IMG/VR virus record: IMGVR_UViG_3300022591_000038
Coordinates: 1-33,921 of that record
Reading direction: 5' to 3' (one strand)
DNA length: 33,921 nt
DNA from: a virus
Below, one piece after another: positions 2,735-20,116 of the stretch. The notes under the pieces are model-generated. The model had not been told where the DNA came from, did no database searches, and saw nothing but the letters and a program-made list of their open reading frames with translations. The position numbers and the translations under genes are program-made. The number at the start of each line of letters is the position of its first letter. The first letter of the stretch is position 1.

Positions 2735-3265
2735 GTGGCTGAATATGTAAATAACAAAGATTTTCTTGCGGCGATCATAGCATACAAAGAAAAGATAAAA
2801 GAAGCAGAAGAACTAGGTAAACCTAAACCAGTTATTCCAAATTATCTTGGGGAGTGTATTCTTAAGATCGCAACACACTTGTCCTATAAACCGAACTTCA
2901 TTAATTACAGTTACAAAGATGACATGATCCTAGACGGGATCGAAAATTGTATTCATTACTTTGATAACTTTGATCCTTCAAAATCAAGCAACCCCTTTGC
3001 TTATTTCACTCAGATTATTTACTATGCATTCTTGCGAAGAATTTCCAAAGAAAAGAAACAGTCTTATGTAAAGAATAAGATGATTCAGAACATGTCATTT
3101 GATCAGTTCGACATTCAAGAACATGATGAAGATGGCCACTATCACAATGCTTACATAGATTTTATGCAGGCAAACAGTAATTTTGACGATTCGTTTATGG
3201 AGAAAAAGAAAGAGAAGAAAGTTAAGAAGCAATCTTCTCTAGATGATTTTATTGAAGGTGAGTGA
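2735..3265 (+). CDS. 55: late transcription sigma factor gp55
   Basis: Phage sigma factor that directs host RNA polymerase to late promoters and, in T4, links it to the sliding clamp. The protein is 176 aa (T4 gp55 is about 185). The centre (60-115) has the sigma region 2-like helices, with YFDNFDPSKSSNPFAYFTQI and YAFLRRISKEKKQ matching the conserved part of gp55 homologues. The last residues, SLDDFIEGE, resemble the clamp-binding tail known from T4 gp55. It has its own sigma70-type promoter (2678-2706), so the late factor is probably made early or in the middle phase. Its stop shares one base with the next start (TGATG). Confidence 0.92.
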   Translation: MAEYVNNKDFLAAIIAYKEKIKEAEELGKPKPVIPNYLGECILKIATHLSYKPNFINYSYKDDMILDGIENCIHYFDNFDPSKSSNPFAYFTQIIYYAFLRRISKEKKQSYVKNKMIQNMSFDQFDIQEHDEDGHYHNAYIDFMQANSNFDDSFMEKKKEKKVKKQSSLDDFIEGE

Positions 3266-4422
3266 TGTCAAACACAGTGAGAGATATTATAAGAAGTCTT
3301 GCTTCTGGCGATTACCGACCACGTGTTTCACGTGCAAGAAATCGTAAGGTTTCAAGAGGTTCTAAAAAAACCGTAAAAAGATTTACATGGGATGCTATGG
3401 ATAACATGGCAAATTTGAAAGATATTATGACTAGTACAGACAATAAAATTTTCCTTGGTGTTTCTGACTTTGATGATTTAATCACAACAGAAATTCTCAA
3501 GCGTCGCGTAGAAGCTGGCAAGCAAACTGTTCATCGCGAGACAACAGTGCTTTGCAACAGAGAGAAATGGGCATCATGGGCAGAAGAACACTTCATTGAT
3601 TGCCTATTGGTTCAGGGTAGCTCTTCATCTGGCTTCATTATTCAAGAAGAAACTGATAACTACATCACATACAATGTGAACAGTAACAGCACAACAATTC
3701 GTGCCTTCGGTGACATTGGTTTTGCCGAGGATATCCTTTGTGTAGTTGAAGATAAGTTTTCCGTTGTAACTTCATATATCGAATGGGTATACGGTAGCGA
3801 TGGTGGATCTGTGAATGTTCCATTGAATCGTGATCGTCTTCCAGTTGACGAGATGTATCCTTTCCTTAAAGGAGAAACTCTTGGTAGCTACTACGATCGA
3901 TATATGGAATCGTCAGCGAACATCCTTCTTTTGATTGGACCACCAGGAACTGGTAAGACTACATTCATTCGTGGTTTACTTGCACATACAAACTCATCGG
4001 CAATTGTTTCATACGATTCAGCTATCCTTGAGAAGGATGGTTTCTTTGCACGATTCATTGAAGATGATGCAAGCGTAATGGTTCTTGAAGATAGCGATGC
4101 TTTCCTCAAGTCACGTAGCGATGGTAATACAATGATGCATCGTTTCCTTAATGTTGGAGACGGACTTGTTACAACACGTGGTAAGAAGTTAATCTTCTCA
4201 ACTAACTTACCATCTATCCGTGATATTGATTCAGCTCTTGTTCGTCCAGGACGTTGTTTCGATATCGTTGAATTCAAACCACTTGGTTATGAAGATGCCA
4301 AGAAACTTGCCAGCAAACTTGGTGGCGAAGTTCCAGAAAATGGAACTGTATTTTCCGTTGCAGAAATCTTCAATAAAGCACAAGAAAATAAACCACAAGA
4401 AAGAAAGGTAGGATTTCTTTGA
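3265..4422 (+). CDS. AAA+ ATPase (BCS1/ClpA-like core)
   Basis: AAA+ ATPase of 385 aa with an unassigned N-terminal domain. The first 40 residues are basic (RVSRARNRKVSRGSKK) and could bind nucleic acid. The ATPase core has Walker A GPPGTGKTT (225-233), Walker B VMVLEDSD (271-278), sensor 1 FSTN (311-314) and an ALVRPGR arginine-finger segment (325-331), the arrangement typical of the BCS1/FtsH-like AAA clade. ATG 3265 is preferred over the in-frame GTG at 3262 because it forms a TGATG junction with gp55. It sits between the late sigma factor and the gp47/gp46 nuclease in one unit, which hints at a role in transcription or DNA metabolism. The substrate is unknown. I know this type as a common unannotated AAA protein of marine T4-like phages. 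Confidence 0.82.
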   Translation: MSNTVRDIIRSLASGDYRPRVSRARNRKVSRGSKKTVKRFTWDAMDNMANLKDIMTSTDNKIFLGVSDFDDLITTEILKRRVEAGKQTVHRETTVLCNREKWASWAEEHFIDCLLVQGSSSSGFIIQEETDNYITYNVNSNSTTIRAFGDIGFAEDILCVVEDKFSVVTSYIEWVYGSDGGSVNVPLNRDRLPVDEMYPFLKGETLGSYYDRYMESSANILLLIGPPGTGKTTFIRGLLAHTNSSAIVSYDSAILEKDGFFARFIEDDASVMVLEDSDAFLKSRSDGNTMMHRFLNVGDGLVTTRGKKLIFSTNLPSIRDIDSALVRPGRCFDIVEFKPLGYEDAKKLASKLGGEVPENGTVFSVAEIFNKAQENKPQERKVGFL

Positions 4423-4700: not shown

Positions 4701-5752
4701 AGGTTGCTATTATAACAGACATTCATTTCGGTGCTCGTAACGATAGCGTTACCTTCATAGACTTCTTTCAGAAATTTTATGACAATACTTTTTTTCCTGC
4801 TATCGATGCAAATGGCATTGACACTGTTCTTATTCTTGGTGATACTTTTGATAGACGAAAGTACGTTAACTTTTACTCGCTACAACGAGCAAAAGAAATG
4901 TTTTTCGCCAAACTGGAAGATCGTGGCATTACTGTTCATATGCTTGCTGGTAACCATGATACCTATTATAAAAATACTAATGATGTAAACTCGCCAGATT
5001 TATTGTTGCGAGAGTATGGTAATGTCAATGTTATTGATGAACCAACAACGATTGATCTTGATGGGTTCAAGGTTTGTATGATGCCATGGATTTGTCCAGA
5101 GAATTATGATGCAAGTATTAATGAGATGAAGACTACAGAGGCAGACATCTGTATGGGTCATTTTGAGATCGCTGGTTTTGCAATGTATAGAGGAATGGAA
5201 AGTCATGAAGGATTGGATAAATCTTTGTTCGAGAAGTTTGATATGGTTTTTTCTGGGCATTATCATCACCGTAGTAATGACGGACACATCTATTACCTCG
5301 GGAATCCATACGAACTTACATGGCAAGATTATAACGATCCCCGAGGATTTCACCTGTTCGACACAGATGAACGAAGACTCGACTTCATTGTCAATCCTTA
5401 TACTATGTTCGCAAGAGTCGAATACGACGACAAAGAAAACGAGCCGATCGAACTTGATGCGCTCGATTTAAAAGATAAGTTTGTAAAACTAATCGTAGTT
5501 AACAAAACTGATTATTATAAATTTGACAAATTCACTCAGAAGCTGTATAATAAAGGATGTGCCGAGATAAAAATTGTCGAAGACTTATCTGAGTTTGAAG
5601 ATGGAGAAGTTGGTGAAGATATTAACCTTGAAGATACTTTGAGTGTTCTTTCTCACTTTATTGATTCTGTTGAAACTGATGCAGATAAAGAAGCAGTCAA
5701 GACATATATGAAAACTTTATATACCGAGGCAATCAATATAGAGGTTGTATAA
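4697..5752 (+). CDS. 47: recombination endonuclease subunit gp47 (Mre11/SbcD-like)
   Basis: Metallophosphoesterase nuclease subunit of the gp46/gp47 complex, the phage counterpart of Mre11-Rad50, which resects DNA ends to start recombination-dependent replication. At 351 aa it is similar to T4 gp47 (339 aa). All metal-binding motifs are visible: TDIHFG (7-12), LGDTFDRR (about 47-54), AGNHDTYY (about 80-87), MGHFEIAG and SGHYHHRS. The gene overlaps the upstream small ORF by ATGA and the next by TAATG. A perfect sigma70-type promoter lies inside its 3' part (5523-5551) and could drive gp46 separately. Confidence 0.94.
   Translation: MKVAIITDIHFGARNDSVTFIDFFQKFYDNTFFPAIDANGIDTVLILGDTFDRRKYVNFYSLQRAKEMFFAKLEDRGITVHMLAGNHDTYYKNTNDVNSPDLLLREYGNVNVIDEPTTIDLDGFKVCMMPWICPENYDASINEMKTTEADICMGHFEIAGFAMYRGMESHEGLDKSLFEKFDMVFSGHYHHRSNDGHIYYLGNPYELTWQDYNDPRGFHLFDTDERRLDFIVNPYTMFARVEYDDKENEPIELDALDLKDKFVKLIVVNKTDYYKFDKFTQKLYNKGCAEIKIVEDLSEFEDGEVGEDINLEDTLSVLSHFIDSVETDADKEAVKTYMKTLYTEAINIEVV
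5523..5551 (+). promoter_or_regulatory. sigma70-type promoter inside gp47
   Basis: TTGACA at 5523-5528, 17-bp spacer, TATAAT at 5546-5551, both perfect consensus. It lies within the gp47 reading frame, about 200 nt before the gene at 5752 and 540 nt before gp46. Activity is inferred from the match alone. Confidence 0.65.
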
Positions 5753-6090
5753 TGTATCAACAAGAAATCCAGTTCTTCTGGCCACTGACTCAACAAAATA
5801 ATCTTGATCTAGACTTCACTCCATGTGAAGCATATGAAAAAGAGAAACGAGAAAAGCAGTGGGCGAACTCTGTTACATCTGGAATGGTTCTTACTGCAGG
5901 AAATGGATTGTCAACAGTAGCATGGGCGCAAATTGATCCAACATATAAGATGCTTCAGGTTCTACCAGATGGTGCTGTTGGCTCATGGGAACTTACACCA
6001 AATATGTCTGTTGGTCGTAAAACAAAACCGAAATTATTACATAGAATCTTCACCAAATTAATGCTCGGGTGGGAATGGAAAGATAAATGA
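5752..6090 (+). CDS. hypothetical protein between gp47 and gp46
   Basis: Unknown 112 aa protein. No membrane segment or signal is visible. It has an N-terminal aromatic stretch (IQFFWPLTQQNN), a charged segment (AYEKEKREKQWANSV), a Gly-rich centre and a basic C-terminus ending LGWEWKDK. It is joined to gp47 by TAATG and to gp46 by ATGA, so it is made together with the Mre11/Rad50-like pair. T4 also has small ORFs in this interval, but I see no clear similarity to them. Confidence 0.72.
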   Translation: MYQQEIQFFWPLTQQNNLDLDFTPCEAYEKEKREKQWANSVTSGMVLTAGNGLSTVAWAQIDPTYKMLQVLPDGAVGSWELTPNMSVGRKTKPKLLHRIFTKLMLGWEWKDK

Positions 6091-7799
6091 TCGTATTTAA
6101 AAGTGTAAGCTGGAAGAACTTCCTTTCGACTGGCAATTCACCAAACAAAGTTTTATTAGACAAATCACCAACAACATTGATCATCGGTAAGAATGGTGAG
6201 GGTAAAAGCACAATCCTAGATGCGTTGTGCTTTTCATTGTTTGGAAAACCATTCCGTAACATCAACAAGAGCCAACTAATAAACAGCATCAACGGTAAGG
6301 GATGTGTCGTTGAAGTTGAGTTTAGTATTTCCAACAAAGAATATAAAATCATTCGTGGTATCAAACCAAACATCTTCGAGATATGGATTGATGGAGAGAT
6401 GGTCAATCAAGATGCTGCATCAAGAGATTATCAAAAAGTTCTTGAGCAACAGATTTTACGTTTAAACTACAAGACATTCACACAGGTTGTTATTCTTGGT
6501 TCAGCGTCATTCGTTCCTTTTATGCAACTACCATCGCATCAGCGTAGAGAAGTAATTGAGGATATCCTTGACATTAAGATTTTCTCAACTATGAATCAAT
6601 TGTTAAAAGAAAAAGCGCAAGGAACTAAGAATGAGATTACTAAGATCGAAGCGGAGATCACCAACGCACGTACAAAGGTTGAGTCGCAAACTCAACTTAT
6701 TAAAACGATATCGGAAGCAAAAGTGGAATCGCTTCAGAAGATCCAAGATAAAATTGCCACGAATAATCAAACCATCGCAGAGACATCTTCGGAAATTACG
6801 ACCATTCTCACAGAGATTGGCAATCTTAAAAGCCAAATTACGTCTAAAGATAAAATTGAGGAAGATATTGACAAGGCGAAGTTACTGAAAGGTAGACTAT
6901 CCCAGAAGATTGAAACCTGCGAACATCACACAGAATTTTTCACAGAGAATGAAGTATGTCCAAGTTGTTCTCAGGGAATCCCCGATGAACATAAAAGTAA
7001 AATCCTTCAAGACTTAAACACAAAAATCGAAGATAACAATTCTAAGATTACTGAGTTGACAACTGTTCTTGGAACATTGACTTCTCAGCTGTCTTCAATC
7101 AATGCAATTATCGAACAGATTACAGATAAGAACATTGAGTTGTCGATGAAGAATTCCACAGTGACATTACTCAACAAACAGAATACTGAACTTGAGTCTG
7201 AACTGCACAATTCTAAAAACGATACAACGAACCTTGACGAAGAGAAGAAAATTCTAAAGGACTTGGCTCAGAATGCCATCGATAAAATCAATGGTAAAAA
7301 TACATTGCTTGAGAAGAGAAACCTTGAAGAAGTTGCTTCTGTTTTACTGAAGGACACTGGTATTAAAACTGCCATTATCCGTGAGTATCTTCCTGCAATG
7401 AACAAATTGATCAACAAGTATCTTAACGCAATGGATACATATATTCACTTTGAACTTGACGAAGCGTTCAATGAGATTATCAAGTCAAGACATCGCGATG
7501 AGTTTACATATGCAAGTTTCTCAGAAGGTGAGAAGATGCGTATCGATTTAGCAATCCTATTCACATGGCGACAAATTGCCAAGATGAAGAACTCTGTCAA
7601 CACGAACCTATTGTTGCTTGATGAGATTTTTGACTCATCACTGGACACAGCTGGAACGGATTACTTCCTGAACCTGATGAACCAGTTCGGTGATAACACA
7701 AATATCTTTGTTATCAGCCACAAAGGTGACCAGCTGTTTGACAAATTCCGCTCAGTTATCAAATTCGAGAAGCGAAACGACTTTTCCGTGATCGTATAA
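6087..7799 (+). CDS. 46: recombination endonuclease subunit gp46 (Rad50/SbcC-like)
   Basis: SMC-like ATPase subunit of the gp46/gp47 complex, 570 aa (T4 gp46 is 560). Walker A is GKNGEGKST (34-42), a Q-loop follows near FTQVVILGSASF, and long coiled-coil arms flank a zinc hook CPSC at 291-294. The ABC signature FSEGEKMR and the Walker B LLLLDEIFD are near the C-terminus, followed by the FVISHKG switch. All features of an intact Rad50-type ATPase are present. It overlaps the preceding gene by ATGA. Its stop codon lies in the left arm of a strong terminator, so it ends the gp55-gp46 transcription unit. Confidence 0.95.
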   Translation: MIVFKSVSWKNFLSTGNSPNKVLLDKSPTTLIIGKNGEGKSTILDALCFSLFGKPFRNINKSQLINSINGKGCVVEVEFSISNKEYKIIRGIKPNIFEIWIDGEMVNQDAASRDYQKVLEQQILRLNYKTFTQVVILGSASFVPFMQLPSHQRREVIEDILDIKIFSTMNQLLKEKAQGTKNEITKIEAEITNARTKVESQTQLIKTISEAKVESLQKIQDKIATNNQTIAETSSEITTILTEIGNLKSQITSKDKIEEDIDKAKLLKGRLSQKIETCEHHTEFFTENEVCPSCSQGIPDEHKSKILQDLNTKIEDNNSKITELTTVLGTLTSQLSSINAIIEQITDKNIELSMKNSTVTLLNKQNTELESELHNSKNDTTNLDEEKKILKDLAQNAIDKINGKNTLLEKRNLEEVASVLLKDTGIKTAIIREYLPAMNKLINKYLNAMDTYIHFELDEAFNEIIKSRHRDEFTYASFSEGEKMRIDLAILFTWRQIAKMKNSVNTNLLLLDEIFDSSLDTAGTDYFLNLMNQFGDNTNIFVISHKGDQLFDKFRSVIKFEKRNDFSVIV

Positions 7800-7908: not shown

Positions 7909-8106
7909 ATGTGGAACGACTTTAGTGACTTTGAACTAGCCCAACTCGCTGGAACATACGGTTTACAGGACTATGTGGACTTTAACGACCAGCTGAGACT
8001 CTCAAACAGGGAGCATCTAGAAGCGATCCTGACTGAGTATGAGTATGCCCTTGCATGGGGTGTTCCAGAGGGTATTGACTTTAATTCAGAAGTAGCGTAT
8101 AATTAA
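7909..8106 (+). CDS. small hypothetical protein
   Basis: Unknown acidic 65 aa protein. ATG 7909 is chosen over the in-frame ATG 7891 because the latter coincides with the predicted transcript start, while 7909 has a purine-rich ribosome site (AGGGGAAAAG) just upstream. The segment ELAQL followed by YVDFNDQ and then Leu-rich helices resembles the N-terminal part of the protein at 22177-22512 (ELAGL, FVDFNDR), so the two may be related. It is the first gene of a new unit after the gp46 terminator; its 3' end carries the promoter of the next gene. Confidence 0.7.
   Translation: MWNDFSDFELAQLAGTYGLQDYVDFNDQLRLSNREHLEAILTEYEYALAWGVPEGIDFNSEVAYN
8075..8103 (+). promoter_or_regulatory. sigma70-type promoter for the HExxH/VWA gene
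   Basis: TTGACT at 8075-8080, 17-bp spacer, TATAAT at 8098-8103, inside the last codons of the small gene upstream. The predicted transcript start is near 8110, 20 nt before the ATG at 8131. Confidence 0.75.
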
Positions 8107-8130: not shown

Positions 8131-10311
8131 ATGACAATTGCAAAAGTAAACTCCGTTGACCTGTCGGCAAAACTGTTGGCTTCTGAGAACATCAGTGTTC
8201 GTCGTGCCCGTGCCCAGACAGCTTCTTTCGACATCACTACACGTGTCCTAACCCTGCCAATGTGGAAAGATCTTTCTCCAGTGGTAGAGGGTATGCTTGT
8301 TGGTCATGAGATTGGCCATGCCTTATACACATCAGAAGAATATCTTGCACCGATCCAAGAAGATCGCAAGATCATGTCATACCTAAACGTCCTTGAAGAC
8401 GTTCGCATCGAGAAGTTGGTCAAGCGTAAGTATCCTGGCATTCGTAAAACAATGACTGATGGTTACAAAGAACTCAACGACAAAGACTTCTTCGGTATCA
8501 AGAAAATTCCAGATATCAATACACTTAACCTTATCGATCGCATCAACCTTTACTTCAAAGCTGGTTTAAACTGTGGCGTCAAATTTACAGTTGAAGAAAA
8601 GCTGTTCGTTGCTCGTGCAGAAAAGACTGAAACAGTTGAAGAAGTCATCGCCCTTGCACGTGAAGTTTACACCTACTCAAAATCAACAATCAAACAACAA
8701 CTTATGAATGCTCTTGCAGAAGAGCCAGAGTTGGAAGAAGACTTCAACGACCCCGATGATAATCTCGAGGAAGATGAAGACTTCTCAAACGACTGGGATG
8801 ATTCTGAGATGCAGGATTCTGACGACACGGTAGATGATACCGAGGATGCTCAGAAAACTGAGGAAAAGAAACAGTCACGTGGTGCTGGCAGTGTCGATGA
8901 GAAAGTTGAAGAAGAACTTGAGTCACAAACAACCAAGAACTTCGATAAGAAACTTGAAGAGTTGGCTGACGACAAAACTGAATACAAATACTATACGATT
9001 GACGAAAAGGGTTTCACTGATCCGCTCGTTTCGTATAAGCGTATTATTCAAGAAACTACAAGTGTTGATGTTTATGAGAGCCAAGAAGAACAGTTGCGTG
9101 TTCAGGCTGAATTCAATAAATTCAAGACAGAGTCTTCACGTGTTGTGAATTATCTAATCAAAGAATTTGAGATGCGCAAGTCAGCAACCCTGTATAAGCG
9201 TGCTCAGACTTCTAAGATTGGTTCTTTGGACATGAAGAAAATCTGGTCATACACTTTGAATGAAGATTTGTTCAAGCGAGTTACAACTATGCCACAGGGT
9301 AAAAACCATGGTATGATTTTCTTGCTCGACTGGTCTGGTTCAATGCAGAATGTTATTAAGGACACTGTTCAACAGGTTGTTACTTTGGCAATGTTCTGTC
9401 ATCGTGCTCAAATTCCATATCAGGTTATGGCATTTGCTGACTACGATCTTGAAGAAGGTATGTCTTACGAGATGCGTGTAGCCATGGCAGACAAGCGTCG
9501 TGCTTACACTGAATCACTGCCTCAATCTATGTTGAATAACGGCACAAACAAATTTGCCCTTCTTGAATTGTTGTCTAGCAAAATGTCGAATGTCGAGTTC
9601 ACAACAATGACTCGTCGTTTGAATTCATTCTGGAGATTTCAAAATGTTCGCAACTATGGTTTGGGTGGAACACCATTGAACGAAGCAGTTGGTCATATGG
9701 TTTCTTACATTCCTAAGTTCATCAAAGCCAACAACATTGAGAAAATGTCTTTGATCACATTGACCGATGGTCAGGGTTCTTCTTTGTATCCTCATGAGAG
9801 ATGGGGTCTTGAAGAGTATCGCATTGAGTACGGTGATGGTTACGCAAGTCGTAAGCGTATCAATTTGAAGCATTTTATTCAAGACCCAGTGACCAAAAAG
9901 TCATACGAGATTACTCGTTGGGGTCAATCTCAAACAGAAGCAATTCTGCGAATGATTAAAGATCGTTACGATATCAACAGCGTTGGTTTCTACATCTGCC
10001 GCAACAGTCGTAACGAACTCAGTTCTGCAGTTGAGAACAATGTTCCTTCTTTGCGTGGTAGCGGTAGCCACTACAATTTGATTGAACAAATGCGTAGAGA
10101 CTTCCGTGATAAAGGTTTTTATTCTTTGAAGAACACTGGTCGTGATGACTTGTTTATCGTGCCACAAAACTCTTTGAAGATTGAAGACGCTGAGATGGAA
10201 GTGAACGAGAAGCATTCTGCCAAACAAATTGCCAAGAACTTCAGCAAGGTTTTGACTGGTAAGAAAACAAGTCGTGTCTTGTTGAACCAATTTATTGGAT
10301 ACGTAGCATGA
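8131..10311 (+). CDS. HExxH metallopeptidase-like protein with VWA domain (CobT-like)
   Basis: Large 726 aa protein. The N-terminus carries a zinc-peptidase-like HEIGH motif (59-63), with LNVLEDVRIE (85-94) supplying a possible third ligand. A long acidic linker (about 202-245, runs of D/E) is followed by a charged helical part. A C-terminal von Willebrand A domain has a full MIDAS: DWSGS (400-404), GGTPL and LTDG. VWA proteins with this layout resemble the CobT subunit of cobaltochelatase and usually work with a MoxR/CobS AAA ATPase, and such an ATPase is encoded at 11126-12268. Whether the peptidase centre is active cannot be told. It overlaps the next gene by ATGA. It has its own promoter. 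Cobalamin synthesis is unlikely, since no other pathway genes are present; a protein-remodelling or proteolytic role is more plausible. Confidence 0.85.
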   Translation: MTIAKVNSVDLSAKLLASENISVRRARAQTASFDITTRVLTLPMWKDLSPVVEGMLVGHEIGHALYTSEEYLAPIQEDRKIMSYLNVLEDVRIEKLVKRKYPGIRKTMTDGYKELNDKDFFGIKKIPDINTLNLIDRINLYFKAGLNCGVKFTVEEKLFVARAEKTETVEEVIALAREVYTYSKSTIKQQLMNALAEEPELEEDFNDPDDNLEEDEDFSNDWDDSEMQDSDDTVDDTEDAQKTEEKKQSRGAGSVDEKVEEELESQTTKNFDKKLEELADDKTEYKYYTIDEKGFTDPLVSYKRIIQETTSVDVYESQEEQLRVQAEFNKFKTESSRVVNYLIKEFEMRKSATLYKRAQTSKIGSLDMKKIWSYTLNEDLFKRVTTMPQGKNHGMIFLLDWSGSMQNVIKDTVQQVVTLAMFCHRAQIPYQVMAFADYDLEEGMSYEMRVAMADKRRAYTESLPQSMLNNGTNKFALLELLSSKMSNVEFTTMTRRLNSFWRFQNVRNYGLGGTPLNEAVGHMVSYIPKFIKANNIEKMSLITLTDGQGSSLYPHERWGLEEYRIEYGDGYASRKRINLKHFIQDPVTKKSYEITRWGQSQTEAILRMIKDRYDINSVGFYICRNSRNELSSAVENNVPSLRGSGSHYNLIEQMRRDFRDKGFYSLKNTGRDDLFIVPQNSLKIEDAEMEVNEKHSAKQIAKNFSKVLTGKKTSRVLLNQFIGYVA

Positions 10312-10742
10312 GTGTTATCGACTTCGTCAAAAACCGTGCGACATTCCATTCTCATATGCAGTATGATGAATCTCGCATGTGTTTTTTGATGGATGCGTAT
10401 CGTTCCATCGAAACAGGAATCTACTTCATCCTTGATGGTGATGACATTCTCAAAGTTGGAAAGGCAGAAGGTAAGAATGGTTTGAGCGGACGACTTGGTT
10501 CGTATCGCTCAAGTCAGGTTACTCGATATCCAAACGATAGAACAACTCAGCTGTTGTTCAAAACAATGACGACCACGCACAAAGACAAGATCTTGTCAAT
10601 GTACGTGTTTCCGATTCCAATGAGCGAAGTTCTTTTTGAAGGATACACAGTGAAGACATCTTTGGCTCGGTCTTTTGAGGAAACCCTGTCCAGACAGGCG
10701 AGGTTGGAAGGGCATTCCATGACCATGTCTGGGCAAGATTAA
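10308..10742 (+). CDS. GIY-YIG domain protein
   Basis: Protein of 144 aa with a GIY-YIG-like nuclease core: GIYFI (37-41), KVGKA (49-53), a conserved Arg in SGRLGSY (R62) and a candidate catalytic Glu at 124 (RSFEETL). The second motif is VGK rather than YIG, a common variant. There is no added DNA-binding module, unlike the homing endonuclease at the left edge, so this is probably not a mobile endonuclease. It is coupled to the VWA gene by ATGA and ends in a terminator. It may act on DNA or RNA; the substrate is unknown. Confidence 0.72.
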   Translation: MSVIDFVKNRATFHSHMQYDESRMCFLMDAYRSIETGIYFILDGDDILKVGKAEGKNGLSGRLGSYRSSQVTRYPNDRTTQLLFKTMTTTHKDKILSMYVFPIPMSEVLFEGYTVKTSLARSFEETLSRQARLEGHSMTMSGQD

Positions 10743-10769
10743 TAACCCTTCCAGTTGTAGGGTTATTTT
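10741..10769 (+). terminator. Rho-independent terminator
   Basis: A 9-bp perfect stem, aataaccct (10741-10749) and agggttatt (10759-10767), with a 9-nt loop and TTTT at the end. It overlaps the stop codon of the GIY-YIG gene. The stem sequence is nearly the same as in the terminators at 7796 and 21562. Confidence 0.85.
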
Positions 10770-10800
10770 GGATCCCGTGCAGTAAGGGTTTGCAAGGGTA

Positions 10801-10829
10801 TTGACATTAATTCAATATTCAGGTATACT
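10801..10829 (+). promoter_or_regulatory. sigma70-type promoter (copy 1 of a repeated leader)
   Basis: TTGACA at 10801-10806, 17-bp spacer, TATACT at 10824-10829. From 10807 to about 10852 the sequence is almost identical to 21606-21651 (spacer, -10 and 5' leader). Confidence 0.88.
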
Positions 10830-10858
10830 TATGGTATAGGATGAGAAAAGGAACTGAA

Positions 10859-11065
10859 ATGACTACAAAATTTGCTCGTGAACTTGACAAGCGTCGCCGT
10901 AGAAGCGAAGCCATCGATGTAGCAATCAAGGAATTTCGTGAAGCCAAACCCGAGTATGCTTATCAGGCTGGGTTTTTTGAGATGCAAGTAAGGTTGCTGG
11001 CTGCAGATTCTGAGGAATCAACTGCCGAACTACTTTCTGCACTACGACGTGCAAAAATGTATTGA
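10859..11065 (+). CDS. small basic hypothetical protein
   Basis: Unknown 68 aa protein, probably helical, with a basic N-terminus (ELDKRRRRSEA) and a C-terminal helix (STAELLSALRRAK). The start at 10859 is preferred to the in-frame ATG at 10841, because the latter is only a few bases after the predicted transcript start while GAAAAGGA (10844-10851) is well placed for 10859. The gene is alone between a promoter and the next promoter, whose -35 overlaps its stop codon. Function unknown. Confidence 0.65.
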   Translation: MTTKFARELDKRRRRSEAIDVAIKEFREAKPEYAYQAGFFEMQVRLLAADSEESTAELLSALRRAKMY

Positions 11066-11090
11066 CTTTAATTTGTAAATGCGGTATAAT
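11062..11090 (+). promoter_or_regulatory. sigma70-type promoter for the MoxR-like ATPase
   Basis: TTGACT at 11062-11067, 17-bp spacer, TATAAT at 11085-11090. The -35 overlaps the stop codon of the upstream small gene. Confidence 0.85.
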
Positions 11091-11125
11091 TTTATTATGA
11101 ATGATTTTTGTGAAGGAACTATGTG

Positions 11126-12268
11126 ATGAGTGATGCGAAATTTGTTGAGACCTTTGAGTCTAAGTTGTTTGAAACTTTCCCCGATGTTGTTGCAACTGGC
11201 ATTGTTTCTCGTGCGCAAATTATGGAAATTATGGATACCGTTGGTACCAAGAAATTTCCAAGTTGGTTGATGGTGAATAAAGCTGGTCGTGGATTGTATG
11301 CCATCGACGGAGCCAAGGCACCAGTTGTTGGTAATCTTGCAGTTAAACCCGAGGAATCTTTTGTGATTGATTATAGTAATGTTGAATCTTTGATCCCTAA
11401 GAAAGATTCCAATTTCGTGCCTTTCGGCAACTACCCAGAACTCGAACAGATCATCAAGTCTGGCATTTTCTACCCATCATATATCTCTGGTCCAACTGGT
11501 AACGGCAAGTCTACCATGGTTGAGCAGATCTGTGCGAAACACAAGAAACCTTTGATTCGTGTTAACCTTAACATGATGACAGACGAAGACCAACTGATTG
11601 GTTCCAAAACTTTGGCCAATGGTAATGTGGAAATTGTCGAAGGTCCAGTGCTAATCGCAATGCGCAATGGTACTACACTGTTGCTTGACGAAATTGACGC
11701 TGGCTCAGCTAACACGCTGTTGTGTCTCCAGCCAATTCTCGAAGGTAAACCATATTACTTCAAACTCAAGAATGAGATGATCACCCCAGCCAATGGATTC
11801 AATGTTATTGCAACTGCGAACACAAAGGGTAAGGGTAGCGATGATGGTCGATACATTGGTACCAATGTGTTGAACGAAGCATTCTTGGAGCGATTTGCTG
11901 TAACCTTTGAACAAGAGTATCCAGCTGCCAAGGTTGAAGTTAAGATTATCAAGAACCTGATGCAAACTTATGAATGCGTCAACGAAGAATTTGCTCAGAC
12001 TCTCGTAACATGGGCAGAAGCAATTCGTAAGGTTTTTGATGAAGGTGGTGTTGACGAAACAATTACAACTCGTCGTATGATCCACATCGTTCGTGCCTAT
12101 GCAATCTTCAAGAGTGAGAAGAAGGCAGTTGAACTTTGTTGCAATCGTTTTGATGTTGCAACAAAACTGGCGTTCCAAGACTTGTTTGAGAAAGTATCAA
12201 ACCCAGTCGTGACTCCAGTGGCTCAGCCAACCCCAGAGCCAGAGCCGATGCAAGAAGTTCCGTTTTAA
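11126..12268 (+). CDS. MoxR/CobS-like AAA+ ATPase
   Basis: AAA+ ATPase of 380 aa. Walker A is GPTGNGKST (122-130), Walker B TTLLLDEID (183-191), sensor 1 ATAN (229-232) and an arginine-finger segment ERF (255-257). The sequence is of the MoxR/CobS clade often labelled CobS in cyanophages. These ATPases normally remodel a VWA-domain partner, here probably the protein at 8131-10311. Residues about 15-60 form a separate small module with FPSWLMVNKAGRGLYAI, which recurs in the next gene. ATG 11126 is preferred over GTG 11123, with GAAGGAA at 11112-11118 as ribosome site. The C-terminus is Pro/Glu-rich. It has its own promoter. Confidence 0.88.
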   Translation: MSDAKFVETFESKLFETFPDVVATGIVSRAQIMEIMDTVGTKKFPSWLMVNKAGRGLYAIDGAKAPVVGNLAVKPEESFVIDYSNVESLIPKKDSNFVPFGNYPELEQIIKSGIFYPSYISGPTGNGKSTMVEQICAKHKKPLIRVNLNMMTDEDQLIGSKTLANGNVEIVEGPVLIAMRNGTTLLLDEIDAGSANTLLCLQPILEGKPYYFKLKNEMITPANGFNVIATANTKGKGSDDGRYIGTNVLNEAFLERFAVTFEQEYPAAKVEVKIIKNLMQTYECVNEEFAQTLVTWAEAIRKVFDEGGVDETITTRRMIHIVRAYAIFKSEKKAVELCCNRFDVATKLAFQDLFEKVSNPVVTPVAQPTPEPEPMQEVPF

Positions 12269-12331: not shown

Positions 12332-12778
12332 ATGTTGAAATTTGCAGATCTTACTAAGTCACAAAAGCAGTTTATCGTTCGTACTCTTGAGAAATTTCCT
12401 GAGTATAAAACTGAGAAAACCCTTGGTGCCAAACAGATTCATGCTGCGTACTACGCCATGAAAGATGAGCGTGGCGCAACTGCTGAGAAGTTGGGTTACC
12501 CTAACTGGTTACAAAGCAAGAATCGTGTAGGTCGTGGTACTTATCAGATGCCATGGCCAACTGATAGCGAATTGTCCAAATTCGCTCAGGGAGTAGCAAC
12601 TCCCAAGCAACCTAAAGCTGTTGCTGTCAAATCTGTTAAAACTTCTGTGAAGAAGGTTGAATCGGATTCTGATGTTGAAGTGTCTCGTCTTCAATCTATT
12701 ATTAACGACTCAGTCGAGTTTGACGAAGACGTTGAAGACTTCAATCAGGTTTTGCGTGAGAATGGTATAGAGGTATAA
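12332..12778 (+). CDS. hypothetical protein sharing the N-terminal module of the MoxR-like ATPase
   Basis: Protein of 148 aa. Residues 17-74 (LEKFPEYKTE, then KQIHAAYY, then YPNWLQSKNRVGRGTYQMP) match residues 15-60 of the ATPase upstream in order and spacing, apart from a short insertion. The shared P-x-W-L and G-R-G-x-Y positions suggest a common small domain, perhaps a winged-helix-like nucleic-acid or protein-binding fold. A Lys-rich linker (about 95-117) and an acidic tail follow. It has its own strong promoter and terminator, so it can be made in excess over the ATPase. It may compete with or bridge to the ATPase's partner; this is inference. Confidence 0.75.
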   Translation: MLKFADLTKSQKQFIVRTLEKFPEYKTEKTLGAKQIHAAYYAMKDERGATAEKLGYPNWLQSKNRVGRGTYQMPWPTDSELSKFAQGVATPKQPKAVAVKSVKTSVKKVESDSDVEVSRLQSIINDSVEFDEDVEDFNQVLRENGIEV

Positions 12779-13182: not shown

Positions 13183-13518
13183 ATGGCAACTAAAGAAGAA
13201 GTTAAAAAGTCCCAAAATGCAACAACTGGTGGGCGAAAATTTGATGGTGGTAAACTTCAGTATGGTTTACTTCCTCCGCTGGCATTGAAAGCCACGGTAG
13301 AAATTCTGACATTTGGTGCGGAGAAATACGAACCAGATAATTGGAAAGTTGTTCCTGACTCAAAACGTAGATACTTTGACGCAATGCAAAGACATCTCTG
13401 GGCATGGAAAGAGGGTGAACAAAACGACCCCGAAACTGGTAAGAATCATTTGGCGCATGCAATGTGCTGTCTGATGTTTCTGTATGAGCATGATGTGAAA
13501 TATTCTAAGGAAAAATAA
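13183..13518 (+). CDS. dATP/dGTP diphosphohydrolase N-terminal domain-like protein (MazG-like)
   Basis: Protein of 111 aa that matches the phage family annotated as dATP/dGTP diphosphohydrolase, N-terminal (MazG-like fold, formerly DUF5664). Conserved features are RKFDGGKLQYGLLP (18-31), LTFGAEKYEPDNW (42-54), RRYFDAMQRHLWAW (62-75) and NHLAHAMCCLMFLYEHD (88-104), with the usual acidic and His residues of the metal-binding helices. It would hydrolyse a purine deoxynucleotide and so shape the dNTP pool. ATG 13183 is chosen because GAGGATA precedes it directly; an upstream TTG in the same frame lies before the terminator. It overlaps the SPFH gene by TAATG. Confidence 0.8.
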   Translation: MATKEEVKKSQNATTGGRKFDGGKLQYGLLPPLALKATVEILTFGAEKYEPDNWKVVPDSKRRYFDAMQRHLWAWKEGEQNDPETGKNHLAHAMCCLMFLYEHDVKYSKEK

Positions 13519-14369
13519 TGTTTACAATTTTTTTGTTTTTAATTCTTGCTGTCGGTGCCGCTGGTGCCATTGCTATCTTGCTTAATCAGAAAGCACTAGG
13601 TGCCATTGTTGGCGTTATCGTCTTTGTTGGTGGTATTCTCTTCAGTTCGTTCACGGTAATCTCGGCTGGTCATACTGGTGTGCAGGTTACGTTCGGTGAA
13701 GTTAATCCCATTGCTTTAACTGAAGGTGTGCACTTTGTCAATCCAATCAGTCGAGTTTATGATGTAGATGTACGTCTGCAGAAAGATCAGCTGGCAGGTG
13801 CCAATGCTTCAACTAAGGATTTACAGGTTGTTCACACTGACATTGTAGTTCAGTATCGTTTGAATGCTGCCAAGGTTCCGCAGATTTACAAAGAGTTCGG
13901 TCTTAATGTAGACGAAAAGGTTCTTGGTCCAGCTATTAATGAATCATTCAAAACTGTAACTGCTCACTATACAAGTGAGGAATTGATCACCAAACGACAA
14001 ATCGTCAGTGATGAAATTCAACAAATGTTAAAGAATAAAGTTGCTCCGTTCGATATCGATGTTTCTGGCATCAGTCTGGTTAACTTTGGATTCTCTTCGG
14101 ATTATCAGAAAGCGATTGAACAGAAAGTTATTGCTGTCCAACAAACAGCCAAAGCTGAACAAGACTTACGTCGTATTGAAGTAGAAGCCAAGAGTCGTAT
14201 TGCTCAGGCTGAAGGTGAAGCCAAAGCGATTAGTATTCAGGCGCAAGCTATCCAAAGTAATGGTGGACAAAATTATGTTCAACTGCAATGGATTGAAAAG
14301 TGGAATGGTCAACTACCAACTACAGTTCTTAATGGTAGCAACGGTATGATGCTTAACTTAGGAAAATAA
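13518..14369 (+). CDS. SPFH/band-7 (prohibitin-like) membrane protein
   Basis: Protein of 283 aa. Two hydrophobic segments (about 2-22 and 25-48) anchor it to the inner membrane. The SPFH/band-7 domain follows (50-230): GHTGVQVTFGEVNP, EGVHFVNPI, the VVHTDIVVQYRLN strand and the long Ala/Glu/Gln helix (about 195-250, KAEQDLRRIEVEAKSRI). This is the architecture of prohibitin and HflK/C-like scaffolds that form ring oligomers and control membrane proteases. In a phage it could protect or redirect host FtsH/HflKC. It starts a three-gene membrane cluster: the next two genes code for a secreted membrane protein and a single-pass protein. Confidence 0.9.
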   Translation: MFTIFLFLILAVGAAGAIAILLNQKALGAIVGVIVFVGGILFSSFTVISAGHTGVQVTFGEVNPIALTEGVHFVNPISRVYDVDVRLQKDQLAGANASTKDLQVVHTDIVVQYRLNAAKVPQIYKEFGLNVDEKVLGPAINESFKTVTAHYTSEELITKRQIVSDEIQQMLKNKVAPFDIDVSGISLVNFGFSSDYQKAIEQKVIAVQQTAKAEQDLRRIEVEAKSRIAQAEGEAKAISIQAQAIQSNGGQNYVQLQWIEKWNGQLPTTVLNGSNGMMLNLGK

Positions 14370-14370
14370 A

Positions 14371-15045
14371 ATGAAAAAGATTTTATATATTATGATGTTA
14401 TCGTTGGCTCTGGTTGCGACTGGAGTTGACGCTAAAGGTGGCAGTTCTTCTGGTGGTGGCGGACATTCTTCTTCAAGTGGTGGTCGTTCCAGCTCCAGCT
14501 TTTCTTCTGGCAGTTCTTCAAAGGGTGGGTTCTCTTCATCAAGCGTAAGTCGCCCATCTGCTGCACCAACAACTCGCACTACCACTACAACAACTACGAC
14601 TTATGCTCGTAGTTCGAATGGTAACTACTATCATTACAACTCTCCATATATTGGTGGTGGTATGATGTATGGTGGTTGGGGTATGGGTTATGGTTATTCA
14701 AATGGTCTGTTGACTGGAATGATTATTGCTAATATGATGCACCCAACTAATACAGTTATGTATGTTGGACCTGGACAGTATAGCAACAATGCTCTATTGT
14801 ATCCAGATGGTCGTGTTGTTAATCAACAGGGTTATCAGGTTGGCACGTATGTCAATGGTCAATTTACTCCAATGCAAAATGGTCCAATGGTTGCCCAACA
14901 GGTTCCTTCCGATGCTGGTGCTACACAAGTTCAGCCTCAACCAGTTGTAATCAACTCTGGTCCAAGTGCCACTGAGATTTTTGGTATGGTTATTCTTGGA
15001 ATGCTTGCCGTTGTTTTGTTTATTGTATTTTTGGGGATGTTATAA
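14371..15045 (+). CDS. Ser/Gly-rich secreted membrane protein
   Basis: Protein of 224 aa with a clear signal peptide (KKILYIMMLSLALVATG, cleavage near DA-KG at 22), a Ser/Gly low-complexity stretch (24-62), a poly-Thr tract (about 69-77), a Tyr/Gly/Met-rich part (about 84-115) and a C-terminal transmembrane helix (about 202-223). The middle (about 128-155: NNALLYPDGRVVNQQGYQVG) may be a small folded unit. Probably sits in the inner membrane with most of it in the periplasm. It lies 1 nt after the SPFH gene and joins the next gene by TAATG. No Cys lipobox is seen. Function unknown; membership of one membrane complex with the SPFH protein is inference. Confidence 0.72.
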   Translation: MKKILYIMMLSLALVATGVDAKGGSSSGGGGHSSSSGGRSSSSFSSGSSSKGGFSSSSVSRPSAAPTTRTTTTTTTTYARSSNGNYYHYNSPYIGGGMMYGGWGMGYGYSNGLLTGMIIANMMHPTNTVMYVGPGQYSNNALLYPDGRVVNQQGYQVGTYVNGQFTPMQNGPMVAQQVPSDAGATQVQPQPVVINSGPSATEIFGMVILGMLAVVLFIVFLGML

Positions 15046-15829: not shown

Positions 15830-16489
15830 ATGAAGTTAAGTAAAAACACTGTTGAGATTTTTAAGAATTTCTCTGGAATTAATATGAACCTACTCTTGAA
15901 GCAGGGTAATAAATTATCAACGATCTCTTCACAGAAGAATGTCATGGCAGATACAACTGTCGGTGAAACATTCCCAGCTGACTTTGGTATCTACGATCTT
16001 GGTGAGTTCTTGGGTGCATTGTCTGTGTTCGAAGATCCAGAGTTGGAGTTCTCAGATAAGTATGTTACCATCAAACAGGGTAATATGAGCATCAAGTATT
16101 TCGCAGCTGCTGCTGAAGCACTTACTGCTCCAACAAAGAGCATTACTTTCCCAGATGCAGAAATCAATTTTACATTGACAGCGAAGCAACTTGATATGGT
16201 TCGCAAAACTGCAAGCGTATTGAGCACTGATGACTTGGCCATTGTTGGTGATGGTTCACGTGTTCTTGCCGTTGTTGGTGACAAGAAGAATGCTTCTGGT
16301 AACTCTTTCAGCGAAGAAGTTGGAACAACTGATAAATCATTCAAGGTTAATCTGAAGGTAGAAAACCTGAAGATGCTTCCTGGTGATTATTCAGTGAGTA
16401 TCTCTTCAAAGAAAATCTCTCGTTTCCAGGGTGCTGGTGACTTGGTGTATTATGTTGCTGTTGAAGCGGATTCTACATTCGAAGGTTAA
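15830..16489 (+). CDS. 45: sliding clamp gp45
   Basis: DNA polymerase processivity clamp of 219 aa, near the size of T4 gp45 (228 aa), working as a ring-shaped trimer. It shows the expected two-domain PCNA-like pattern: MKLSKNTVEIFKNFSGIN at the N-terminus, YDLGEFLGALSVFEDPEL (54-71) and the domain linker followed by INFTLTAKQLDMVRKTASVL. In T4 it also activates late transcription by binding gp55 and gp33. It has a perfect promoter and a purine-rich ribosome site (AAAAGGAAATG). The next gene begins directly after the stop. Confidence 0.93.
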   Translation: MKLSKNTVEIFKNFSGINMNLLLKQGNKLSTISSQKNVMADTTVGETFPADFGIYDLGEFLGALSVFEDPELEFSDKYVTIKQGNMSIKYFAAAAEALTAPTKSITFPDAEINFTLTAKQLDMVRKTASVLSTDDLAIVGDGSRVLAVVGDKKNASGNSFSEEVGTTDKSFKVNLKVENLKMLPGDYSVSISSKKISRFQGAGDLVYYVAVEADSTFEG

Positions 16490-19633: not shown

Positions 19634-20116
19634 ATGGTACATAAATTCATTCCAACTATTTTTGGTGAACACTTCAAAGACTTTGATAAAGTTTTTGTTG
19701 GATTCGATGAGCAATTCTCGAAGATGCAATCTCTGCATGACGAACTCACTAAGAATATCCCTAACTATCCTCCATTCAATGTTCGTAGAAACGGCAACAC
19801 ATACACGATTGAAATCGCTGTAGCTGGTTTCGCTGATTCTGAAATCGACATTACTATCGATGGTGGTAAGTTAATCGTTAAAGGAAACTCTGAGTCTGTA
19901 GAGCCAGAAGGTTCTGACTACTTGTTCAAAGGTATTGCCAATCGTGCGTTTACACGTGCATGGGCTATCGGCGATCAGTACGAAGTTAAAGACGCTGAGT
20001 TGTTCAATGGTGTATTGAAGATCGCTCTTGATCAATTGATCCCAGAAGAAAAGAAAGCAAAGAAAGTTCCAGTTAAGTCTGGTTCTGGAAAGCAGTTCTT
20101 AAGAGAAGGTGAATAA
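19634..20116 (+). CDS. hsp20: small heat-shock protein Hsp20
   Basis: ATP-independent chaperone of the alpha-crystallin/IbpA family, 160 aa. The alpha-crystallin domain covers about 45-138: PPFNVRRNGNTYTIEIAVAG, FADSEIDITIDGGKLIVKG, the FKGIANRAFTRAW segment and the closing beta strand with ELFNGVLKIAL (the Gly-Val-Leu-x-Ile motif). A short N-terminal arm and a Lys-rich C-terminal tail flank it. Hsp20 genes are a usual part of cyanophage and other marine T4-like genomes, where a role in virion or tail assembly has been suggested but is unproven. It has its own long leader and overlaps the next small ORF by TAATG. Confidence 0.93.
   Translation: MVHKFIPTIFGEHFKDFDKVFVGFDEQFSKMQSLHDELTKNIPNYPPFNVRRNGNTYTIEIAVAGFADSEIDITIDGGKLIVKGNSESVEPEGSDYLFKGIANRAFTRAWAIGDQYEVKDAELFNGVLKIALDQLIPEEKKAKKVPVKSGSGKQFLREGE

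Follow-up and report, generated by a model that had tools for sequence, protein, structure and literature searches.

A MoxR-type AAA+ ATPase and a zincin-like VWA protein paired in a T4-like replication region: a candidate ATP-driven metalloprotease machine

The virus record IMGVR_UViG_3300022591_000038 (IMG/VR), analyzed over its positions 1–33,921 as one stretch of 33,921 nucleotides (hereafter the window), carries a pair of plus-strand genes in a T4-like replication region. The gene at 8131–10311 codes for a 726-amino-acid, CobT-like protein with a VWA domain, which matched PHROG 459 'peptidase' (E = 3.5e-183), and the gene at 11123–12268 codes for a MoxR/CobS-type AAA+ ATPase of 381 amino acids, with the ATG at 11126 as its likelier start. 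The VWA protein is built in the order of an N-terminal domain with the motif HEIGH, an acidic linker and a C-terminal VWA domain with a complete metal ion-dependent adhesion site (MIDAS). These three elements had been named in a preliminary description of this DNA, and all of them were located (HEIGH at residues 59–63, the linker at about 198–253, the MIDAS at 400–405, T514 and D546). The VWA domain (9298–10308) contains DWSGSM at residues 400–405, GGTPL with T514 and LTDG with D546; the residues D400, S402, S404, T514 and D546 are conserved, and with the DxSxS motif and the metal-site T and D in place on its VWA fold, it qualifies as a VWA domain with a MIDAS. The full-length model had a predicted local distance difference test score (pLDDT) of 74, and the structural search with it returned matches for the VWA part alone, namely the NorD VWA domain bound to NorQ (VIA Z 16.2) and the MDN1 MIDAS (VIA Z 15.6). 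The acidic linker (residues about 198–262; 8722–8916) is mostly predicted to be disordered, with pLDDT of about 31–35 over residues 200–250.

Since the full-length model matched VWA structures only, the N-terminal domain (residues 8–197; 8152–8721) was folded separately with AlphaFold2, giving a pLDDT of 93 and a predicted template modelling score (pTM) of 0.88. In this model, HEIGH (8305–8319) lies within helix 50–66 and NVLEDVRIE (residues 86–94; 8386–8412) within helix 79–100. The nearest solved structures were ZMPSTE24 (VIA Z 6.8), ArdC (6.4), abylysin (5.9), selecase (5.7), IrrE (5.5) and BlaR1 (5.3), so that the top matches are metallopeptidases or relatives of metallopeptidases. As each single match is modest, the zincin fold assignment leans on the agreement among the matches and on the invariant residues, which together support a zincin-like predicted fold. 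H59 and H63 are proposed as zinc ligands, E60 as the catalytic residue and E89 (or D90) as a putative third ligand, and the combination of HEIGH with NxxED suggests a gluzincin-type metallopeptidase domain that would bind zinc and cleave proteins. Judged from its sequence, a protease-like chemistry of the window protein is well supported.

Conservation of HEIGH in homologues had been set beforehand as a test of the preliminary description, and HExxH was invariant in all 37 of the aligned viral sequences that cover the motif. A scan of bacterial genomes also found relatives with HExxH, NxxEDxRIE and the MIDAS, and across 38 aligned phage and cellular relatives H59, E60, H63, N86, E89, D90, R92, E94 and G103 were invariant. 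Because HExxH is invariant in both sets (37/37 and 38/38), HEIGH is far more than a chance occurrence. The two genes also occur together rather than independently: among 35 related IMG/VR loci, the ATPase was encoded in 30 of the 30 with enough sequence, divergently in one of them (L031), the contigs of the other five ending inside the VWA gene or within about 300 bases of it. Isolate phage records matched each of the two proteins in equal numbers (365 Synechococcus, 61 'Cyanophage' and 24 Prochlorococcus). Staphylococcus phages have distant AAA_5 ATPases that match the window ATPase, and in one such phage no HExxH was found in the two flanking proteins examined. A 188,235-base contig of a Nonlabens xiamenensis isolate (L053), of T4-like phage size, encodes the VWA protein; that genome gave no CobN match.

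The ATPase matched PHROG 249 (E = 6e-103) and the Pfam families AAA_5 (E = 4.5e-18) and CbbQ_C (E = 3e-5, over the cut-off). The full set of AAA+ motifs attributed to it earlier is conserved, comprising Walker A (GPTGNGKS), Walker B (LLLDEID), sensor 1 (TANT), the arginine finger (NEAFLERF) and sensor 2 (RR), and with an AAA_5/CbbQ-type core carrying all motifs and a gene partner with a VWA domain, the protein belongs to the MoxR-type AAA+ ATPases. Its C-terminus MQEVPF (ADEDVPF in L031) was considered as resembling the tail of single-stranded DNA-binding protein, SSB (DDDIPF), and was rejected as it is not conserved in other relatives. The window protein at 12332–12778 contains YPNWLQSKNRVGRGTYQM, which resembles FPSWLMVNKAGRGLYAI at the N-terminus of the ATPase and is possibly a stand-alone copy of that domain; this link was set aside, only 18 residues being behind it.

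The pair lies between gp46 (SbcC-like; 6087–7799, plus strand) and the gp45 sliding clamp (15830–16489, plus strand), both conserved neighbors, in a region with the gene order UvsW, late sigma factor gp55, an AAA protein, gp47, gp46, the pair, gp45, gp44, gp62, RegA, Hsp20, DNA ligase and DNA polymerase. It has this position in most of the related viral loci, and the same neighborhood was found as gp46–VWA–ATPase–gp45 in S-PM2, P-SSM2, HTVC008M and the Ochrobactrum phage OC, in some with intervening genes. Phages of different lineages showed comparable placements: near UvsX/helicase genes in DLP6, near primase/helicase/polymerase genes in ICP2, near DNA ligase/Pol III alpha genes in SSU5 and RHph_X66, and beside or near replication genes of the UvsX, helicase, primase, polymerase or ligase set in a Gordonia phage. 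HExxH is retained in all five, and ICP2 alone has V in place of E89. In bacterial loci, the pair is found in modules with SSB, RecT, YqaJ exonuclease, DUF3150, RadC and primase. The order SSB–RecT(Bet)–YqaJ(Exo)–ATPase–DUF3150–zincin-VWA–RadC–primase was observed in the Proteus integrative and conjugative element (ICE) pR997 and in chromosomal loci, and an IncC plasmid carries a closely similar set of ssb, bet, exo, DUF3150 and VWA genes, with an ATPase gene upstream. A whole-genome search of 21 genomes with relatives placed 16 of 18 RecT genes and 17 of 23 YqaJ genes (counted by hand) within 8 kb of a zincin-VWA gene, the 28 zincin-VWA genes together with 8 kb on each side amounting to about 0.5% of some 92 Mb. 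With gp46/gp47, gp55, gp45 and gp44/62 here, and elsewhere SSB–RecT–YqaJ, primase, RadC and Pol III alpha or ligase, the neighborhood points to DNA replication and recombination, and this context is best read as a sign of a role in DNA processing. The link of cellular and conjugative-element relatives to RecT/YqaJ and the placement beside replication genes in other phage lineages are new here; among the papers searched, none was found that links the family to RecT/YqaJ modules or presents CobT as an inactivated zincin, an absence that is not proof.

Both genes are preceded on the plus strand by a sigma-70-type promoter-like site of the form TTGACT-N17-TATAAT, at 8075–8103 for the VWA gene (a similar site was found in L002) and at 11062–11090 for the ATPase gene (similar sites in L002, L003, L005 and L006), and both sites start with TTGACTTTAATT. 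Near-perfect plus-strand sites (TTGAC-N17-TATAAT) are present at 5523, 8075, 11062, 12271, 15754, 23874, 25640, 28868 and 30321, and for TTGAC-N16-19-TATAAT nine sites were observed in the window against 0.11 expected. The T4 late promoter motif TATAAATA was not enriched in the window. Because sigma-70-type sites stand at both genes and late motifs are not in excess, early or middle transcription of the pair by the host polymerase is suggested.

From these observations, a mechanism can be proposed in which the two genes would give rise to one ATP-driven machine. The MoxR-type AAA+ protein would form its ring motor, as we infer from CobS, NorQ and CbbQ; the VWA/MIDAS domain of the partner would hold the ring and the substrate, and the flexible acidic linker would bear the gluzincin-type metallopeptidase domain. 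Host sigma-70-type promoters would drive early or middle transcription, and the machine, working within the replication/recombination module, would pull apart and probably cut a DNA-bound or DNA-processing protein, a target that may be of phage or host origin. We put the chance that this reading is right at about even. Several points weigh against it. None of the VIA Z values of the zincin domain reaches 8 (maximum 6.8), and no Foldseek E-value was below 0.1. RecT/YqaJ genes were not near the relatives L073, L077, L084 and L097. Neighborhood is not function, as the modules of mobile elements share ancestry and replication genes make up a large share of phage genomes. Further, the system may be dispensable in SXT, because removing three genes in this part of the element cut transfer by a factor of 10 at most (PMC2791158); the same limit held for the SXT deletions of bet, exo, s067, s068 and s070. 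Judging by gene order, the ATPase is probably encoded by s067.

The cyanophage ATPase has been treated as the auxiliary metabolic gene 'cobS', and for the viral cobST that they described, Liu et al. (2021) proposed that it hijacks the host CobN to make cobalamin. The ATPase and CobS are homologues (E = 9e-23 in a phmmer comparison with the solved CobS), the VWA protein is a distant homologue of CobT, and the CobS–CobT system (TIGR01650/TIGR01651; PDB 9uka–9ukh) shares the AAA+ partner and the order of N-domain, acidic linker and VWA domain. However, the ATPase scored 83.3 bits against the CobS model TIGR01650, far under its curated cut-off of 558.55, and the VWA protein had no match to the CobT model TIGR01651 at E 0.1. 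CobN was not found in the 33.9-kb window record. Among the 21 genomes with relatives, some of which are incomplete metagenome-assembled genomes, 12 lacked any CobN match and 16 lacked one above the cut-off; true CobT was present in three, encoded at another place. E. coli of the control set likewise gave no CobN match, yet 161 E. coli plasmid records, out of 1,243 plasmid records, encode the family. The site formed by H59, E60 and H63, invariant here, is absent from CobT. The window pair is very probably not a cobaltochelatase, in keeping with the preliminary description, which had seen a MoxR-VWA pair that was not evidently a cobalamin enzyme, and the notion of a viral CobST that joins the host CobN is very improbable. 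In the control genome of Caulobacter vibrioides, true CobT scored over the cut-off and CobN was not detected; even chromosomal CobST may serve otherwise.

The relation to CobT became visible through the cellular relatives. Profile comparison joined the phage N-domains to the cellular N-domains (E = 7e-20) and a cellular N-domain to true CobT (E = 1.5e-9); direct comparison of the phage N-terminus with CobT by hhalign gave no match, so the cellular intermediates were needed. Four true CobT proteins have A/S, F/M/V and R at the positions of H59, E60 and H63 and lack a counterpart of D90, and E89, R92 and E94 are retained. In a FastTree phylogeny of 40 sequences, CobT clustered with the ICP2, SSU5 and RHph_X66 proteins with a support of 0.91, on long branches, a position that fits loss of the peptidase site within the family. 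On these alignments, CobT is a relative in which the putative peptidase site has been lost. It has been stated that phage cobT was 'mistakenly annotated as a peptidase' (PMC8651126); the claim seems to run the opposite way, because true CobT lacks H59, E60 and H63 and its place in the tree agrees with a loss inside the family.

The MoxR-VWA machines NorQD and CbbQO carry out insertion or remodelling without proteolysis, and CobT functions without the site, so the N-domain could hold its metal for structure or substrate recognition only, within a non-catalytic chaperone. That E60 and both histidines are strictly invariant in phages, ICEs, plasmids and bacteria alike is difficult to account for unless the site is catalytic, which makes such a chaperone distinctly unlikely. 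A peptidase could alternatively process structural proteins: Iyer et al. (2021; PMC7824862) proposed a role in virion assembly for the MoxR and metallopeptidase-vWA pair that jumbo phages of group 2.2 carry, citing a MoxR-vWA pair required for archaeal virus tails, and in the window an Hsp20 gene (19634–20116) also lies nearby. An assembly chaperone that folds and trims virion proteins is nevertheless quite improbable here, as the pair stands among replication/recombination genes in the lineages examined, there is no virion to assemble for its relatives on conjugative plasmids and ICEs, and both genes are preceded by sigma-70-type sites rather than T4 late promoters. Further, in the part of PMC3037559 that was available, the cyanophage core proteins newly detected in S-SM1 virions are T4-GC15 and T4-GC190 and not T4-GC146/150.

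The substrate to be destroyed could also be of host origin, such as an end-processing nuclease or a restriction enzyme directed against DNA that is entering the cell or being replicated, and the protease would then be a functional counterpart of lambda Gam beside Bet/Exo. This would fit the link with two-gene Bet/Exo recombination in elements described as having no gam (PMC2786100), the structural resemblance to the antirestriction protein ArdC, the sigma-70-type promoter sites and the occurrence in lytic and conjugative elements alike. A host target would nonetheless be conjectural; PADLOC gave no match, and no defence genes stood beside the pair in the loci inspected. Such a takeover or anti-defence function is unlikely. 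The reading preferred here remains that of a zincin-VWA machine acting within the replication/recombination module.

Some neighboring genes were considered separately. A GIY-YIG-like open reading frame (ORF) at 10308–10742 (plus strand) overlaps the stop codon of the VWA gene, as the preliminary description had reported in calling the two translationally coupled; a functional meaning of this coupling was not borne out. Only a faint PHROG 1111 match (E = 0.0019) and none in Pfam stand behind this assignment, and the one further independent record that has the ORF, L001, is probably the same virus because the compared proteins are 99–100% identical to those of the window. As the gene is not conserved with the pair among related loci, it was dropped as part of the system. 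Another GIY-YIG endonuclease (Pfam E 3.4e-6) is encoded at 15–635, directly upstream of UvsW. The further AAA ATPase (3262–4422, 386 amino acids, PHROG 14322 of unknown function) lies between the genes of the gp55 late sigma factor and gp47. At 13518–15045, an SPFH/Band_7 protein is encoded ahead of a protein that is rich in serine and glycine and has hydrophobic ends.

The pair in the window is divergent within an already described family whose function is putative. Cyanophage surveys count the ATPase, under the name 'cobS', among the core auxiliary metabolic genes for vitamin B12, and this ecological reading would be wrong should the pair be a protease machine that acts in DNA metabolism. 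In SXT/R391 ICEs and IncC plasmids, the family occupies a conserved and so far unexplained stretch adjoining Bet/Exo, and it suggests an evolutionary origin for CobT.

Several known systems come close to the pair. NorQ–NorD (PDB 9qh6) and the Midasin MIDAS (8ql1), the best structural matches of the VWA part, likewise join a MoxR-type or Midasin AAA+ protein to a MIDAS VWA domain. Their functions differ, being nitric-oxide-reductase activation and ribosome assembly. To our knowledge, neither bears a zincin signature. The zincins ArdC, IrrE/PprI, selecase and Wss1 have the HExxH zincin fold that is predicted for the N-domain, and they are among the nearest structural neighbors found for it (Z 3.5–6.4); we know of no VWA domain or MoxR-type partner in them. 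The jumbo-phage pair (PMC7824862), compared by description only, agrees in architecture and pairing and probably belongs to one family with the window pair; virion assembly was proposed there, whereas the context here favors DNA replication/recombination. The AAA ATPase–DUF3150–VWA genes of SXT/R391 ICEs, IncC plasmids and pCAR1 (PMC2791158, PMC2642839) encode a zincin-VWA protein with HExxH/NxxED and a CobS-like ATPase, as checked for R997 and IncC; the pCAR1 paper noted the plasmid/ICE gene pair without mention of a protease motif. These mobile elements differ in having DUF3150 and adjoining RecT/YqaJ, in contrast to gp46/gp45 in the window. A wider proposal, tentative and on balance unlikely, is that of a widespread AAA+-driven metalloprotease system common to phages, ICEs and conjugative plasmids, in which MoxR–zincin-VWA would strip or cut DNA-bound proteins during recombination, at replication forks or DNA ends, or remove host end-attacking nucleases as a substitute for Gam, and of which CobT would be a domesticated, protease-dead descendant. 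A machine of this kind at forks or DNA ends would resemble in design SPRTN/Wss1 working with p97.

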